A DNA stretch of 64,000 nucleotides. Origin: Streptosporangium brasiliense. GTDB taxonomy: Bacteria > Actinomycetota > Actinomycetes > Streptosporangiales > Streptosporangiaceae. Position numbers and translations under genes: made by a program. The stretch's first letter is position 1. Each line of letters starts with the position of its first letter. Below are positions 15,117-21,077 of the stretch, piece by piece. The notes under the pieces were generated by a model. It worked only from the letters and a program-made list of their open reading frames with translations, was not told the origin of the DNA and made no database searches. Where the stretch lies: positions 5,456,001 through 5,520,000 of the forward strand of contig NZ_JAUSRB010000002.1 of the NCBI RefSeq assembly GCF_030811595.1, in the 5' to 3' direction.

Positions 15117-17264
15117 TCAGGAGCTCGTGAGGATGACGAGCCGCTGGGTCGCCCGGGTCATCGCGACATAGCGGTCGACCGCTCCTTCGATGCCCTCGCC
15201 GAACGCCTCCGGGTCGATGAGGACGACCAGGTCGAACTCGAGCCCCTTCGACAGCTCCGGGCTCAGCGACCGGACGTGGGACGTCGCCCGGAACGTGGGA
15301 TCACCGATGACGCAGGCGATCCCGTCGGCATGCGCGGCGAGCCAGGCGTCGAGGACCGAGCCCAGGTCCGAAGTGGATCCGTGCACGACGGGGACACCGC
15401 TGCTGCGGATGGAGGTCGGCACGTTGGCGTCCGGGAGCGCGGCCCGGATGACCGGCTCGGCCTCCGCCATGACCTCTTCCGGCGTCCGGTAGTTGATGCT
15501 CAGGGAGGCCAGGTCGACCCGGTCGAGCCCGATCCGGTCGAGCCGTTCCTGCCACGACTCCGTGAACCCGTGCCTGGCCTGGGCGCGGTCCCCGACGATG
15601 GTGAAGCTCCGGGACGGGCACCGGAGCAGCAACATCTGCCACTCCGCGTCGGTCAGCTCCTGGGCCTCGTCCACGACGATGTGCGCGAACGGGCCGGCGA
15701 GCAGGTCCGGGTCGAGGGTGGGCAGCTCGGACTCGTCGACCAGATTCCGCTGGAGGTCCGCTCGGCGCAGCTGCGTCACGAGCCCTTCGCCGTCGTCGTC
15801 GGCCTCGATCAGGTTCTCGACGACCTGGGCCATGTGCTCGCGCTGGGCGGCGAGAGCGGCTTCCTGCCGGCGCTTGCGCCGTGACGCCTCCGGGTCGCCG
15901 AGCCGCTGCCGTGCCGCGTCCAGGAGCGGCAGGTCGGACACCGTCCAGGCCTGGGCGTCCCCGCGCTGCAGCTTCCGGACCTCGTCGGGGCTGAGCCAGG
16001 GAGCGCACTTCCGCAGGTAGGCGGGTACCGACCACAGGTCTCCGACGAGGTCAGCCGCTTCGATCAGCGGCCACGCCCTGTTGAAGGTCGTGAGCAGCTC
16101 CCTGTCCTGCAGCAGCGACTTCCGGAGCAGGTCGGCCGAGACGTCGTCGTCGTGCTTGTCCATCAGGATCGTGAGCAGTTCCTCCCAGATCCGGTCACGC
16201 GCCTCGTTGTGCGGAGTACCGGGTTCCGGTGCCTCGAACGCCTCGGCCCAATCGTCGGCGCTCAGCCAGATGTCGGACCAGGGGGTCGTGACCGTCATCC
16301 CCTTGGTGGGCGGGTTCTCGTAGAACCTGACGGCCGGCTCGATCGCCTTCAGCAGGTCCGCCGACGACTTCAGGAGAGCCACCTCCGGGTCGGTCTCGAT
16401 CGCCGCCGCGGCTCCCTCGGTGACGAGGTCCCGCAGGGTGCAGGTCTGCACGCCCTCCTCTCCGAGGCTGGGGAGGACGTCGGCGACGTAGGCCAGGTAG
16501 GGCTGGTGCGGACCGACGAACAGCACGCCGCCCCGGCGGTGACCGAGGCGGGGGTCGGAGTAGAGGAGGTAGGCGGAGCGGTGCAGCGCGACGACGGTCT
16601 TCCCCGTACCCGGACCGCCGTCGACGACGAGAGCGCCGCGGGATCCCGCGCGGATGATGGCGTCCTGGTCGGCCTGGATGGTGCCGAGCACGTCTCGCAT
16701 CCGGGCCGACCGGTTGCCGCCCAGGCTGGCGATGAAGGCGGACTGGTCGTCGAGCGCGGCGTGCCCCTCGAACCCGTCCGAGGTGAACACCTCGTCCCAG
16801 TAGTCGCTGATCCGGCCGCGGGTCCAGCGGTACCTGCGGCGGCTCGCCAGCCCCATCGGGTTGGCGTGGGTGGCGCCGAAGAACGGCTCAGCCGCGGGGG
16901 AGCGCCAGTCGAGCAGCAGCCGGCGGCCCGCGCTGTCGGTGAGGCCGAGCCGTCCGATGTACACGGGCTCGGGGTCGTCCGCGCCGACGATGCGCCCGAG
17001 GCACAGGTCCAGACCGAAGCGGCGCAGGGCTCGCAGGCGAGCGGTCAGCCGGTGGATCTCCAAGTCCCGGTCCATCGCCTGCCGGCCGATGCCGCCGGGC
17101 GCCCTGCGCTCGGTGTCGAGGCGGTCGGACAGGTCGGCTATCGACTGCTCAAGGCTCTCCGCGATGGCCGCGAAGTGCTGCTCGTCGCCGGCGATCAGCG
17201 CCGGGTCGGCCTTGGGGGAGAGATGGTCGGGAAGGTCAAACGCGCTGGTGGTCAGCGGGTTCAC
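15117..17264 (-). CDS. helR: RNA polymerase recycling motor ATPase HelR (UvrD/HelD superfamily)
   Basis: Cytoplasmic helicase-like ATPase of 715 residues from GTG 17264. The N-terminal helical arm (FDLPDHLSPKADPALIAGDE...) matches my recollection of HelR, the actinobacterial HelD relative that displaces rifamycin from RNA polymerase and confers tolerance. Walker A GGPGTGKT is at 216-223, followed by LHRSAYLLYSDP; Walker B is IVVDEAQELTD; later motifs include FTIVGDRAQARHG and SINYRTPEEV. It is monocistronic and follows a long upstream region with an RAE-like palindrome (17683-17701). General HelD-type polymerase recycling without rifamycin protection is the alternative. Confidence 0.88.
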   Translation of the reverse strand: MNPLTTSAFDLPDHLSPKADPALIAGDEQHFAAIAESLEQSIADLSDRLDTERRAPGGIGRQAMDRDLEIHRLTARLRALRRFGLDLCLGRIVGADDPEPVYIGRLGLTDSAGRRLLLDWRSPAAEPFFGATHANPMGLASRRRYRWTRGRISDYWDEVFTSDGFEGHAALDDQSAFIASLGGNRSARMRDVLGTIQADQDAIIRAGSRGALVVDGGPGTGKTVVALHRSAYLLYSDPRLGHRRGGVLFVGPHQPYLAYVADVLPSLGEEGVQTCTLRDLVTEGAAAAIETDPEVALLKSSADLLKAIEPAVRFYENPPTKGMTVTTPWSDIWLSADDWAEAFEAPEPGTPHNEARDRIWEELLTILMDKHDDDVSADLLRKSLLQDRELLTTFNRAWPLIEAADLVGDLWSVPAYLRKCAPWLSPDEVRKLQRGDAQAWTVSDLPLLDAARQRLGDPEASRRKRRQEAALAAQREHMAQVVENLIEADDDGEGLVTQLRRADLQRNLVDESELPTLDPDLLAGPFAHIVVDEAQELTDAEWQMLLLRCPSRSFTIVGDRAQARHGFTESWQERLDRIGLDRVDLASLSINYRTPEEVMAEAEPVIRAALPDANVPTSIRSSGVPVVHGSTSDLGSVLDAWLAAHADGIACVIGDPTFRATSHVRSLSPELSKGLEFDLVVLIDPEAFGEGIEGAVDRYVAMTRATQRLVILTSS

Positions 17265-17286
17265 GGTATCAGCTCCGATTAGAGGT

Positions 17287-17314
17287 GGCTTGCGGCCGTT
17301 ACGCGTGGCAAGGC
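17287..17314 (-). promoter_or_regulatory. Split RAE-like inverted repeat next to the helR start
   Basis: GGCTTGCGGC (17287-17296) and GGCAAGGC (17307-17314) match the left and right halves of the rifamycin-associated element as I recall it, but are separated by 10 bp. It lies 22-50 bp upstream of the helR GTG. It could be a decayed element or a second protein-binding site. Confidence 0.35.
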
Positions 17315-17682
17315 GTCCGGACCGGCGTGACGGACCTGGTGGCCATGACGGGCGGCGCTCCGCCTGAGGTGGCCCCGTGGCCGTTGCCGGTTCAGGCCGC
17401 CAGGGTCCTGCGGGTTCTGGTGTTCTGGGTCCTGGCTCGGCGGCCCCGCGTGGCTCACGCGGGCACCGGCGGCACGCCGGCACCGGCCGGCGGCACCGCG
17501 GACTCCCTGTCCGGCGGCGCGCACACCCGCACCTCCGCGCGGGGTTCCCGCAAACTCACCGCGAGTCCCGCCAGCGGTTCGACGTCCCCCGCGCGACCCA
17601 TACGTCGACGACAACACACGCACTCCGTGACTCCCGATTTCCGCAGGTTCCGGCCTCGGCCGATGATTCTGCGGCACGACCC

Positions 17683-17722
17683 GGGTCTTGTGGCAAGCCC
17701 CCCGGTGCGCTATACGTTAAGA
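17683..17722 (+). promoter_or_regulatory. RAE-like 19 bp palindrome overlapping a -35/-10 promoter
   Basis: GGGTCTTGTGGCAAGCCCC (17683-17701) matches the recalled rifamycin-associated element GGGGCTTGCGGCAAGGCCC at 16 of 19 positions, in either orientation. Reading plus, TTGTGG (17688-17693) and TATACG (17711-17716) are 17 bp apart, a good vegetative promoter with the element over the -35. Reading minus, toward helR, CAGAAT lies about 19 bp beyond TTGCCA. The element is 419 bp from the helR start. Confidence 0.6.
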
Positions 17723-17932
17723 GTGGAAAGGAGCGGGCACTCCCCTTTCCCTCACCGTCCGCCGCGGTCGGACGACCTCCTCCTCGCAGAGCGACGGCGC
17801 GCCGCGTACGGAGGTGCCGCCGGCCCAGGAGGATCTCCCACGGGCCTGCGGACGCGGCCGCCGGACGAGAGGTCCCTCACCCTCCTCGGAGCCCGTGACA
17901 AGACCTTGCGGGGGTGTCCCGGCGCGGCGTGA
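17723..17932 (+). CDS. Possible leaderless small ORF behind the RAE-like promoter
   Basis: A GTG lies 6 nt after the TATACG hexamer, the geometry of a leaderless transcript, and opens a 69-residue basic, low-complexity frame (begins MERSGHSPFPHRPPRS). It has no recognised domain and no upstream Shine-Dalgarno. It is as likely to be a non-coding RNA or chance. Antisense overlap with the antiporter gene begins about 80 bp further on. Confidence 0.2.
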   Translation: MERSGHSPFPHRPPRSDDLLLAERRRAAYGGAAGPGGSPTGLRTRPPDERSLTLLGARDKTLRGCPGAA

Positions 17933-17948
17933 CCCGGGTGATGCCCGT

Positions 17949-17990
17949 GCTCCCGCTCCCGCTCGCCGGAACGGGAGCAGCAGCGGGAGC
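17949..17990 (-). terminator. Hairpin after the antiporter gene
   Basis: GCTCCCGCT (17949-17957) pairs with AGCGGGAGC (17982-17990), with further CCCG/CGGG pairing inside. It lies 20 bp beyond the antiporter stop and would end its minus-strand transcript before helR. Confidence 0.55.
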
Positions 17991-18010
17991 AGGAGCGGCC
18001 GTCGCCCCGG

Positions 18011-20224
18011 TCAGGGCCGGTCCGCGGGGGCGCGCACGGCGGAGACGGCCGCGGCCCAGTCCACCGGGTCGGCGTCCTGCTCGGCGCGGACCAGCAGGTG
18101 GGCGCCGTCCACGGCTGTCCCGGTGTCGGGGGCCACGACGAGCGCGCCGGCCGGGACCGGGCCGGAGGTGGCCGCCACCCCGAGTCTGGCCAGCCGCTGG
18201 GCCAGGGCCGAGGCCCGGCCGCCGCCGGCGACGACCAGCGGGCGCCCCTGCAGGAGGGCGAGGGTGAGCGCCACGTGGGCCGCGGCGTCGCCGGCGCCGT
18301 GGTGCACCGCGATCGGCCCCGCCGCGGCCAGGACCTGGCCGGAGGGGTCCGGGGAGCCCGGGGCGCCGGGGCCGTCCGGGGAGGTCCGGAGACCGGCGGA
18401 GGCCGGCGGCCCCGCGGCTGTCTGGTGGCCGGGACCGTCCAGGGGCGCCTGGGGGCGGCCGGGGACGTCCGGGGAGGCCGCAGAGCCCAGGGGGCCATCC
18501 TGGGGGCCGGGAGCCTCCGGGAGCGCGGAGACCGTCACCACGCGGCAGACGGCGGCGGCGCGGATCCCGGCGTAGCCGGGGGCGCCGGCCGGCAGCACCA
18601 CCAGATCGGGCTGCGCGCCGCCGACCAGCTCGGGCAGCTCGGCCGCCACGTCGCCGCTGAACCGGCTCACGACCTTGGCCTCGGAGCCGTGGCGGCGGGC
18701 CGTGGCGGCGAGGCTCTCCAGTTCGTGGAGGGTCTCGGCCAGCTCGGCGAGCTCGAAGGACAGGCCGTTGCCGACCTCCAGGCGGCCCCGCGGGTAGGGG
18801 CGCAGGTGGGCGAGGACCACCTCCGACGGGGAGGCGGCCCGGGCCAGGGTGGCCGCCAGGTCCGCCAGCGGCCCCTGCTCGGCGGGGGAGCCCGGGACGA
18901 CGGCCAGCACCCGGTGGGCGGCGCTCTCGCCGAGGGCGGCCCGCTCGGCCTCGGCGATGTCGCGGGCCACCCGCCGCTCGGGATACACCCAGCGCAGCAG
19001 CGGGCCGGTCATCGCGGTGGTGACGAGGGCCATCACCACCATCAGCGAGTAGAGCTCGTTGTCGAGCACGCCCTTCTGCAGGCCGACGGTGAGAATGACG
19101 ATCTCGGTCAGGCCGCGGGTGTTGAGCAGGGTGGCCATCGCCCAGGACTGCCGGTTGGGCAGCCGCTGCGCCCGCGCCGCCGCGTAGGAGCCGAGCAGCT
19201 TGCCGCCGACCGCCACCGCCAGGATCGCGGCCAGCGTGCCGAGGCTGGACAGGTCCAGCGCGCGGAGGTCGACGTTGAGCCCCGCCACCACGAAGAACAT
19301 CGGCAGCAGCAACAGCACCGCGAGCTGCTCCAGCCGTTCCAGGATCTCGTGGTTGAGGCGCTCGGCGCCCTCGCGGGGCATCACCGCGCCGAACATGAAC
19401 GCCCCGAAGATGAAGTGCACGTGCATCCACTCGGTGGCCCAGGCCGAGCCGATGAGGCCGATGAGCACCAGCGACAGCAGGCTCGGCGTCAGCCGCCCCG
19501 CCTTCTCGTGGGCCGGCACCAGCCGGGCCAGCAGCGGCCGGACCACCAGGAACATCACCAGCGCGTACGGCACGGCGAGCAGGACCTTCCACTGCCCCTC
19601 GGCGTCGCCGGCCCCGGCGATGCCCACCACCACGGCGAGCACCGTCCAGGCGAGCACGTCGATCACCGCGGCGGCGGCCAGCGACAGGCCGCCGAGCGCG
19701 ATGCGCTGCATGCCGCGGTCGGTGAGGATGCGCGCCAGCACCGGGAAGGCGGTGGCGGCCATCGCCGCGCCCATGAACAGCACGAACGCGAGCGTCTTGG
19801 CGCCGCCCACGTGGTCGCCGGCGATGCCGAGCGCGAGCGCGCAGCCCAGGACGAACGGCAGCACGGTGGAACCGAGCGCCACGGTCACCGCGATCCGGCC
19901 CTTGCCCCTGACCAGTTTCTGGTCCAGCTCCAGGCCGACGACGAACATGAACAGCACCAGGCCGACGTTCGCCAGCGCCTGGAGCGGGGGGCGCATCTCC
20001 GCGCCGAACAGCTTCTCGCCGATGAGCGGGCCGAGGAGCGTGGGGCCGAGCAGGATGCCCGCCACGATCTCACCGACGACCGGAGGCTGGCCGAGCCGTC
20101 TGGCGAGCGCCCCCAGCAGTCGCGCGGCGGCCAGGACGATCACCAGGTCGAGCAGGAGCAGATCCACGTGGAGCACTTGCGAACACGCTTCCCGTACGTA
20201 ATGAAAAGCCCCGAGAATGACCAT
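18011..20224 (-). CDS. CPA2-family cation/proton antiporter with C-terminal Usp-like domain
   Basis: Inner-membrane Na+(K+)/H+ exchanger of 737 residues from ATG 20224. About twelve membrane helices fill residues 1-415, with KefB/NapA-type signatures GQPPVVGEIVAGILLGPTLL, FMFVVGLELD and MFFVVAGLNVD. The cytoplasmic C-terminal half (450-735) resembles two nucleotide-binding universal-stress-like modules joined by a Pro/Gly-rich linker of about 60 residues. It diverges from a Ser/Thr kinase gene with 64 bp between starts, so co-regulation or phosphorylation is plausible but unproven. The transported ion is not evident. Confidence 0.88.
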   Translation of the reverse strand: MVILGAFHYVREACSQVLHVDLLLLDLVIVLAAARLLGALARRLGQPPVVGEIVAGILLGPTLLGPLIGEKLFGAEMRPPLQALANVGLVLFMFVVGLELDQKLVRGKGRIAVTVALGSTVLPFVLGCALALGIAGDHVGGAKTLAFVLFMGAAMAATAFPVLARILTDRGMQRIALGGLSLAAAAVIDVLAWTVLAVVVGIAGAGDAEGQWKVLLAVPYALVMFLVVRPLLARLVPAHEKAGRLTPSLLSLVLIGLIGSAWATEWMHVHFIFGAFMFGAVMPREGAERLNHEILERLEQLAVLLLLPMFFVVAGLNVDLRALDLSSLGTLAAILAVAVGGKLLGSYAAARAQRLPNRQSWAMATLLNTRGLTEIVILTVGLQKGVLDNELYSLMVVMALVTTAMTGPLLRWVYPERRVARDIAEAERAALGESAAHRVLAVVPGSPAEQGPLADLAATLARAASPSEVVLAHLRPYPRGRLEVGNGLSFELAELAETLHELESLAATARRHGSEAKVVSRFSGDVAAELPELVGGAQPDLVVLPAGAPGYAGIRAAAVCRVVTVSALPEAPGPQDGPLGSAASPDVPGRPQAPLDGPGHQTAAGPPASAGLRTSPDGPGAPGSPDPSGQVLAAAGPIAVHHGAGDAAAHVALTLALLQGRPLVVAGGGRASALAQRLARLGVAATSGPVPAGALVVAPDTGTAVDGAHLLVRAEQDADPVDWAAAVSAVRAPADRP

Positions 20225-20288
20225 GGCGACGTTACCGTGTGCGGGACGTGGCCGCGAGGGGCGCGTGAGGCGCGGAGGGGAGATATCG

Positions 20289-21077
20289 GTGGACGGCATC
20301 GCCGACTACGAGTTCGTCCGCTCGCTGGGGGCGGGCAACCATGGCGAGTTCTATCTGGCGAGGAGGCCAGGCCGCCTGCCGGTCGAGGCCGAGTACGTCG
20401 CGGTGAAGGTGGTGGGGGGTACCGGCGGCGACGCCTTCCGGCGGGCCACGCGCGAGCTGAAGGCCTTCGCCGCGGTGCGCTCGCCGTACCTGGTGACGCT
20501 CTACGACGCGGGCCAGCAGGGCGGGGTCTTCTACTACTCGATGGAGTATCTGCCCGGCGGCTCGCTGGGCAGGCCCGCCGAGCCGCCGTCGCGGGAGCGG
20601 GCGCTGCGCTCGGTCGCCTGCGTGGCCCACGCCGCGCAGGCGCTGCACGAGGAGGGCATCGTGCACCGCGACATCCGCCCCGGCAACGTGCTGCTCACCG
20701 ACGAGGGGGGCAAGCTCTCGGACCTGGGGCTGTCGCAGGTGCTGATGCCGGGGGCGACGGTGACCGGGATGGGCGGCATCGGCTCGGTGGAGTTCACCGA
20801 CCCGGCGCTGCTGCAGGGCGACAGGCCCGCTCCCGCCGGGGACGTGTGGTCGCTCGGCGCGACGCTGCACTGGGCGGTGACCCGCACCGGCCTGTACGGC
20901 GAGCTGCCCGTCCACGACCCGCTGCTGACCCTGCGCAAGGTCTACAGCACGCCGCCGTCGCTCCACCCCGGCCTGGGGCCCGAGCTGGCCGAGCTGGTGC
21001 ACGCCTGTATCGGGGACGTGGCCGGGCGGCCCACCGCCGGGGGGCTGGCCGACCGGCTCTACGCGCTGGTGGCCTGA
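20289..21077 (+). CDS. Soluble Hanks-type Ser/Thr protein kinase
   Basis: Kinase of 262 residues that is essentially only a catalytic domain, with no membrane helix. Glycine loop LGAGNHGEF (13-21), ATP Lys40 in VAVKVV, catalytic loop IVHRDIRPGNVLL and metal motif DLG (in place of DFG) are present, then the APE-region equivalent FTDPALLQGD and DVWSLGATLHWAVT. GTG 20289 is preceded by AGGGGAG at proper spacing. Its 3' end overlaps the convergent tetR gene by 19 bp. The neighbouring antiporter, which has regulatory domains, is a possible substrate (inference). Confidence 0.9.
   Translation: MDGIADYEFVRSLGAGNHGEFYLARRPGRLPVEAEYVAVKVVGGTGGDAFRRATRELKAFAAVRSPYLVTLYDAGQQGGVFYYSMEYLPGGSLGRPAEPPSRERALRSVACVAHAAQALHEEGIVHRDIRPGNVLLTDEGGKLSDLGLSQVLMPGATVTGMGGIGSVEFTDPALLQGDRPAPAGDVWSLGATLHWAVTRTGLYGELPVHDPLLTLRKVYSTPPSLHPGLGPELAELVHACIGDVAGRPTAGGLADRLYALVA

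Follow-up and report, generated by a model that had tools for sequence, protein, structure and literature searches.

The window, a stretch of 64,000 nucleotides of the Streptosporangium brasiliense genome, contains a minus-strand gene whose product matches the curated NCBIfam model NF041254 (motor_HelR) over its full length with 1314.3 bits, against a cut-off of 750. This score places the protein in HelR, or class II HelD, and confirms the gene as helR, the name given to it in the initial annotation; a role in rifamycin protection is predicted. Orthologues with 68-93% identity occur in 19 of the 40 relatives searched, its own genome apart. Upstream of helR lies a palindrome that resembles the rifamycin-associated element (RAE), and promoter-like elements surround it on both strands. 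The features of this region are as follows:

15117-17264, minus strand: helR, predicted RNA polymerase recycling/rifamycin-protection ATPase, GTG start at 17264, 715 aa (NF041254)
17268-17473, minus strand: former rgt-helR intergenic DNA (identity to DNA of loci L013 and L012)
17462-17623, minus strand: 5' part of an rgt relic, GTG at 17623 plus 54 codons, frameshifted (tblastn and DNA identity)
17666-17671, minus strand: putative helR-directed -10 element CAGAAT, 19-bp spacer, start predicted at about 17659-17661
17683-17701: RAE palindrome, reading GGGTCTTGTGGCAAGCCCC, and GGGGCTTGCCACAAGACCC on the helR (minus) strand (consensus match, conserved orientation)
17691-17696, minus strand: putative helR-directed -35 element TTGCCA, inside the RAE
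17688-17693, plus strand: putative divergent -35 element TTGTGG, inside the RAE and overlapping the helR -35 element
17713-17718, plus strand: putative divergent -10 element TACGTT, 19-bp spacer
17725-17750, plus strand: predicted start of a divergent RNA (GG, 17725-17726) with a 5'-terminal hairpin

The genome also carries two rpoB genes (G000:C2:680701-684006 and G000:C2:4031149-4034466, with open frames of 1166 and 1183 aa). Within the rifampicin-pocket segment, the second gene has N at the position where the first has S, a position that we take to be E. coli 531. The second rpoB may encode a less sensitive polymerase beta subunit.

The palindrome is located 419 bp from the helR GTG. Scored against the 19-bp RAE consensus, it has 17 matching positions when read on the plus strand and 16 when read on the helR strand, bearing out the RAE-like element of the initial annotation. 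It also stands upstream of a rifamycin-resistance gene and overlaps the sense -35 element. The initial annotation had further proposed a genome-wide search for the consensus. Allowing three mismatches, we found five forward and six reverse matches, compared to 10 and 8 for a reversed-pattern control; at this stringency, the 19-mer alone is at chance level and has no significance in its own genome. The full dyad module, in which the RAE core is flanked by a -10 element on either side, occurs exactly twice in the 10.5-Mb genome and never in the control, which removes the doubt raised by the loose matches. The second module (G000:C1:1916113-1916165, locus L176) heads an intact rgt gene, coding for a rifamycin glycosyltransferase of 414 aa. 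We conclude that the palindrome upstream of helR is a genuine RAE.

The element is conserved in place and direction. All 20 orthologues (the window's own and those of 19 relatives) are preceded by an RAE that faces helR as it does in the window, at a distance of about 1.5 kb or less in 18 of them and just past 1.5 kb in the other two. The same arrangement holds for 78 of 80 named helR loci, whose titles yield 21 genus labels. The exceptions are L064 (Streptomyces sp. A3M-1-3), the sole long named locus that lacks an RAE, in 3997 bp of upstream sequence, and L081, which was counted as lacking one with only 281 bp of upstream sequence present. The consensus re-derived from the 78 loci inherits their selection, as they were picked by likeness to the starting consensus, and the RAE of L027 departs from it at four positions. 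Conservation in the 78 loci reaches past the 19-mer, extending at least from about -49 to +49. A search of ten more distant HelD loci (L028-L037) did not find the RAE core. A published account reports that some HelR-group genes have no clear RAE that could be identified (PMC8655204). One locus, L087 (Streptomyces sp. PKU-EA00015), has an extra RAE module in reverse orientation 722 bp upstream of helR, and two RAE genes may stand back to back there.

At the level of the class, 113 of 296 genomes contain an exact RAE, compared to three for the reversed control. On recount, these 296 genomes hold 154 exact sites, of which those in G225 and G234 match in both directions. Among the sites listed, 50 loci were fetched, and a resistance gene lies behind the RAE in 49 of them (HelR 26, Arr 8, Rox 7, Rph 6, and Rgt 2). 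The remaining module, at L152, is followed by no known rifamycin gene; the first open reading frame behind it has 224 aa and no NCBIfam match and, by eye, appears amidase-like.

The 419 bp between the RAE and helR are unusually long for a simple promoter region, and comparison with related loci suggests why. From 17785 down to 17462, the window shares 85.5% identity with the RAE-rgt region found elsewhere in its genome, and tblastn finds rgt residues 8-54 in a frame other than that of the relic's start codon. From 17473 to 17268, it is 84-85% identical to the intergenic DNA between rgt and helR in L013 and L012. The deletion junction (17462-17473) is a 12-bp overlap between these blocks, and by the alignment coordinates, about 1.07 kb present in L012 is missing from the window. 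We therefore read the long upstream region as the wreck of an rgt gene, in which the 5' leader and first 54 codons have been joined to the old intergenic DNA across a deletion of about 1.07 kb.

Such decay accounts for the wide variation in the distance between the RAE and helR, which ranges from 52 to about 1580 bp among the orthologues. In L020 and L021, the gap is 1405 bp and holds an intact Rgt of 411 aa. The L020 protein scores 598 bits on NF000354 and the genome's own separate Rgt copy 521 bits; both are related to the model but fall below its equivalog cut-off of 800. Across 98 loci (the 20 orthologues and the 78 named loci, with three genomes counted twice: L009/L039, L011/L040, and L016/L054), rgt encodes at least 400 residues in 19, is partial in 30, the class to which the window belongs, and is undetectable by tblastn in 49. 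This last number includes L014, yet its DNA matches the relic. Separately, three of 16 genomes of the genus (G015, G013, and G006) have two full-length rgt-like copies each; the copies are found at L185, L186, L187, L189, L190, and L191, and all of these loci except L190 carry an RAE module. The relic in the window shows the loss of a drug-modifying enzyme and the retention of its promoter for a target-protection gene.

The initial annotation had raised the idea of a long helR leader with attenuation, and one could also imagine a leader peptide. The old rgt start opens a frame of 114 codons that ends 14 nt before the helR start, and many relics retain the rgt start codon, both of which would suit a regulatory leader. 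However, of 33 relics, 24 keep this frame open as far as the helR start and 19 and 18 do so in the other two frames, so its openness mostly reflects base composition. The gap length is not conserved, the leader sequence is that of an rgt relic, and a scan of 17200-18100 found no terminator. We therefore reject attenuation or a leader peptide as the function of the 419-bp region, an account to which we now give almost no weight.

We then consider the sequences that flank the RAE. On the helR side, all 78 named helR loci and all 50 class loci have a NANNNT hexamer 19 bp from the RAE -35 element. On the opposite strand, a TANNNT hexamer is found 19 bp from the divergent -35 element in 77 of 78 and 50 of 50, respectively, set against a background of 598 TANNNT hexamers in 942,900 positions. 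The one exception, L092, seems by eye to have TANNNT at 18 bp. The score that first oriented the 50 class loci included some of the positions under test, so we counted again, letting only the resistance gene decide the orientation; the divergent element was present in 49 of 49 loci (L152 falls outside this set). In the larger survey, an RAE with a divergent element occurs in 112 of 296 genomes (control, 0) and at 152 of 154 exact sites, with one exception each in G036 and G271.

An outward promoter had been proposed in the initial annotation as TTGTGG-17-TATACG. Conserved promoter-like sequence that shares the RAE is indeed present, but its register is TTGTGG-19-TACGTT. At a spacer of 17, none of the 78 helR loci and just one of 50 class loci has TANNNT, which excludes TATACG as the -10 element. 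Additionally, 12 of the 49 gene-assigned class loci have lost the TATA tetramer and kept TANNNT at 19 bp. A simple sigma-70 scan detected no promoter on either strand of this region because it allowed only spacers of 16-18 bp and the hexamers fall under its match threshold. The initial annotation had also suggested bidirectional control, but the neighborhood does not support control of a second gene: the next gene on the plus side is a convergent Na+/H+ exchanger (18011-20299, minus strand; PF00999, 200 bits), and the plus-strand open reading frame that begins past the divergent promoter and overlaps the exchanger gene (17814-18575) has no Pfam match.

Across 128 loci, T occupies position -12 of the divergent -10 element in 127 and of the helR -10 element in none. 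Compared with TATAAT, the hexamer on the helR side is the nearer match in 89 loci, the two are equal in 34, and the divergent hexamer is nearer in five, which does not bear out the divergent -10 element as the better of the two. Relative to TTGACA, the divergent -35 element matches at four of six positions in 103 of 128 loci and the helR-side -35 element at three of six in 103 of 128. As far as its sequence goes, the divergent promoter is not made the stronger one. In S. coelicolor, HrdB promoters are described as conserving A at -11 and T at -7, with a -35 element that is absent or poorly conserved in most of them (PMC6344877); for this reason, the RAE need not act as a -35 element. By eye, no -10 element that could serve another helR-directed promoter beyond the RAE is apparent in the block conserved in the named loci. 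Such an upstream promoter has been reported for helD of M. smegmatis (PMC10719064); its start, about 20 bp upstream of the RAE, falls close to where the divergent start is predicted.

To see which columns resist change, we can turn to 13 drifted loci, picked by eye (eight arr sites, three helR, one rgt, and one unassigned). Between -34 and -1 of the divergent side, the only columns invariant in all 13 are T-12, A-13, T-17, the G that follows, and the first G of the start. The second G of the start is present in 12 of 13, and the three inner positions of the hexamer vary. This conservation suggests a promoter-like pattern. It bears on another account, in which a transcription factor responsive to rifamycin binds the RAE as its operator, switches on the helR promoter, and explains control by itself, with the conserved TATA-containing block and the hairpin described below being either protein-binding DNA or no part of the system. 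A 19-bp palindrome whose conserved GGG/CCC flanks lie past the -35 hexamers is what such a factor might bind, and published authors likewise suspect one (PMC10719064, PMC12802891). However, what persists in the drifted loci is the pattern of a -10 element and start site, not a whole operator, and a symmetric factor would act on both sides equally.

The two predicted start positions of the divergent transcript are G in 78 of 78 and 77 of 78 named helR loci, and a hairpin follows in 119 of 126 loci examined, with its best version beginning at nucleotide 1 in 88 of the 119. This lax criterion is also satisfied by 90-97 of 126 shuffled sequences. Loops vary in length, which makes fixed-column covariation uninformative; we instead exchanged hairpin arms between the 126 loci. 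Native arms pair with a mean of -12.8 kcal/mol, compared to -10.0 kcal/mol for swapped arms (z = -13.4, a value that relatedness among the loci may inflate), and native pairing is stronger than the mean of dissimilar swaps in 105 of 126. Control regions gave z values of +1.0 and -0.9. On the sense side, a hairpin at +36 to +44 has a weak arm-swap signal (z from -3.3 to +1.8). A further palindrome, GGCCGAGGCC, at the predicted helR start (17652-17661, minus strand), is conserved over the helR loci and also shows a weak pairing signal.

Behind the divergent hairpin, 37 of 126 loci have a U-rich tail (at least five T in eight), so that hairpin and T-run together form a candidate intrinsic terminator on the plus strand. 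Tails were found in only 2-3 of 126 shuffles, two in a segment 100 nt farther on, and three in the reverse reading. By gene, they occur in 29 of 78 named helR loci, 4 of 24 class HelR, 3 of 6 Rph, 1 of 7 Rox, 0 of 8 Arr, 0 of 2 Rgt, and 0 of 1 unassigned. The predicted RNA ends in the 37 loci fall at 28-39 nt (median 33), implying that the divergent promoter would make an RNA of about 33 nt in these relatives. The window is not among them: its hairpin does not differ from its own shuffles (z = 0.06) and has no U-tail. That the hairpin changes in sequence and keeps its pairing, with a tail that is directional where present, argues further against a factor acting alone. We regard that account as possible but hold it with some doubt, and its odds overlap those of our preferred reading, which also allows a factor.

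The divergent promoter might also be a by-product of a palindromic -35 element, with the hairpin stopping a useless transcript and rifamycin control confined to the helR side. Bidirectional promoters that arise from sequence symmetry are described as common in bacteria (PMC12825309), a terminator at the very first nucleotide fits damage limitation, and it is the helR-side hexamer that usually comes closer to TATAAT. Nevertheless, a by-product should often be lost, and the divergent -10 element persists at nearly every exact RAE site in the 296 genomes. It is retained alike with HelR, Arr, Rox, Rph, and Rgt genes. We consider this explanation improbable, at perhaps the odds of drawing a given suit from a pack of cards.

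Taken together, in the relatives sampled, the RAE looks like two back-to-back promoters with mirror-image 19-bp geometry, and it is possible that the divergent promoter takes part in helR control. Our preferred reading, to which we assign a probability of about 0.48, is that the two promoters are mutually exclusive, that competition between them contributes to low helR expression, and that rifamycin shifts the outcome in favor of helR. Transcription of helR would run on the minus strand from TTGCCA-19-CAGAAT, starting near 17660 and crossing about 400 nt of rgt debris. The RAE would double as the -35 element of the plus-strand promoter TTGTGG-19-TACGTT, whose transcript would start at 17725 with the hairpin and stop after about 33 nt in those relatives that have a U-rich tail. 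Because the two -35 elements overlap, RNA polymerase could presumably occupy only one promoter at a time, and this competition would help to keep helR low when rifamycin is absent. Rifamycin could then shift the balance toward helR, either through an RAE-binding factor or by altering the behavior of polymerase at the divergent promoter. The exact 19-bp placement of the -10 element, on the divergent side in 127 of 128 loci and on the helR side in 128 of 128, supports a two-promoter arrangement.

Several observations count against this model. An arrested polymerase at the divergent promoter would also shut off helR, an effect opposite in sign to induction. For B. subtilis, moving the helD promoters 17 bp closer is reported to cause steric interference and to abolish induction (PMC12802891). 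Since simple occlusion has the wrong sign and closer promoters lose induction, the shift toward helR would have to come from an RAE-binding factor or from an effect mediated by polymerase or RNA, and we place the factor somewhat ahead. The GGG/CCC flanks of the RAE are not accounted for by the -35 elements, and the weak, tailless hairpin of the window itself fits the model poorly. Basal activity also matters: five bidirectional promoters of E. coli are described as too weakly active for competition, which arises once one side is strongly activated (PMC12825309).

A bolder version of the preferred reading is that the RAE is not an operator at all but a mutually exclusive promoter pair, with RNA polymerase itself as the rifamycin sensor. 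The divergent promoter would make nothing but a self-terminating hairpin RNA of about 33 nt and so report on polymerase activity; rifamycin would stop it, and either the shared -35 element or the missing small RNA would free the resistance gene. We judge this unlikely, although if true, Actinomycetes would widely use this sensor design to control helR, arr, rph, rox, and rgt. Whichever reading holds, every model has to account for a predicted second promoter kept in nearly every RAE examined. This is a concrete part that can be tested, and its mirror symmetry predicts small RNAs that can be searched for in existing start-site maps. Neither a divergent promoter nor a small terminated RNA is mentioned for an RAE in the small part of the literature that we searched, the primary RAE and HelR papers (reportedly Spanogiannopoulos 2014, Surette 2022, and Hurst-Hess 2022) aside.

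How does this arrangement compare with known systems? The RAE is described as a palindrome that overlaps the sense promoter and whose regulator is not known (PMC10719064, PMC12802891), and rifamycin sensing through it by Actinomycetes is said to await elucidation (PMC12802891). Like the RAEs reported for helR, rgt, rph, rox, and arr, the element in the window is a 19-bp palindrome with the same orientation and the same overlap with the sense -35 element (PMC10719064). It differs in that here, and in the relatives sampled, the RAE also appears to serve as the -35 element of a mirror-image divergent promoter followed immediately by a hairpin and, in some relatives, by a terminator-like tail. Operons with the order RAE-rgt-helR occur in Streptomyces, Nonomuraea, Kribbella, Actinomadura, and the window's own genus, and they share its module and gene order; in the window, however, rgt is a relic, and the intact RAE-rgt lies elsewhere in the genome.

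The helD/pps system of B. subtilis likewise places two opposed promoters before a rifampicin-protection gene, with polymerase as a possible sensor (PMC12802891). As described there, those promoters converge from separate starts and the antisense one was measured as the stronger, whereas the predicted RAE promoters diverge and overlap at the -35 element. They are therefore not of the convergent, non-overlapping type. Another parallel is offered by the bidirectional promoters of E. coli, in which pseudo-symmetric DNA lets polymerase bind in two mutually blocking orientations (PMC12825309). Those promoters, of the type described by Warman, share a -10 element; the RAE pair would instead share its -35 element, with two separate -10 elements placed 19 bp out on each side.
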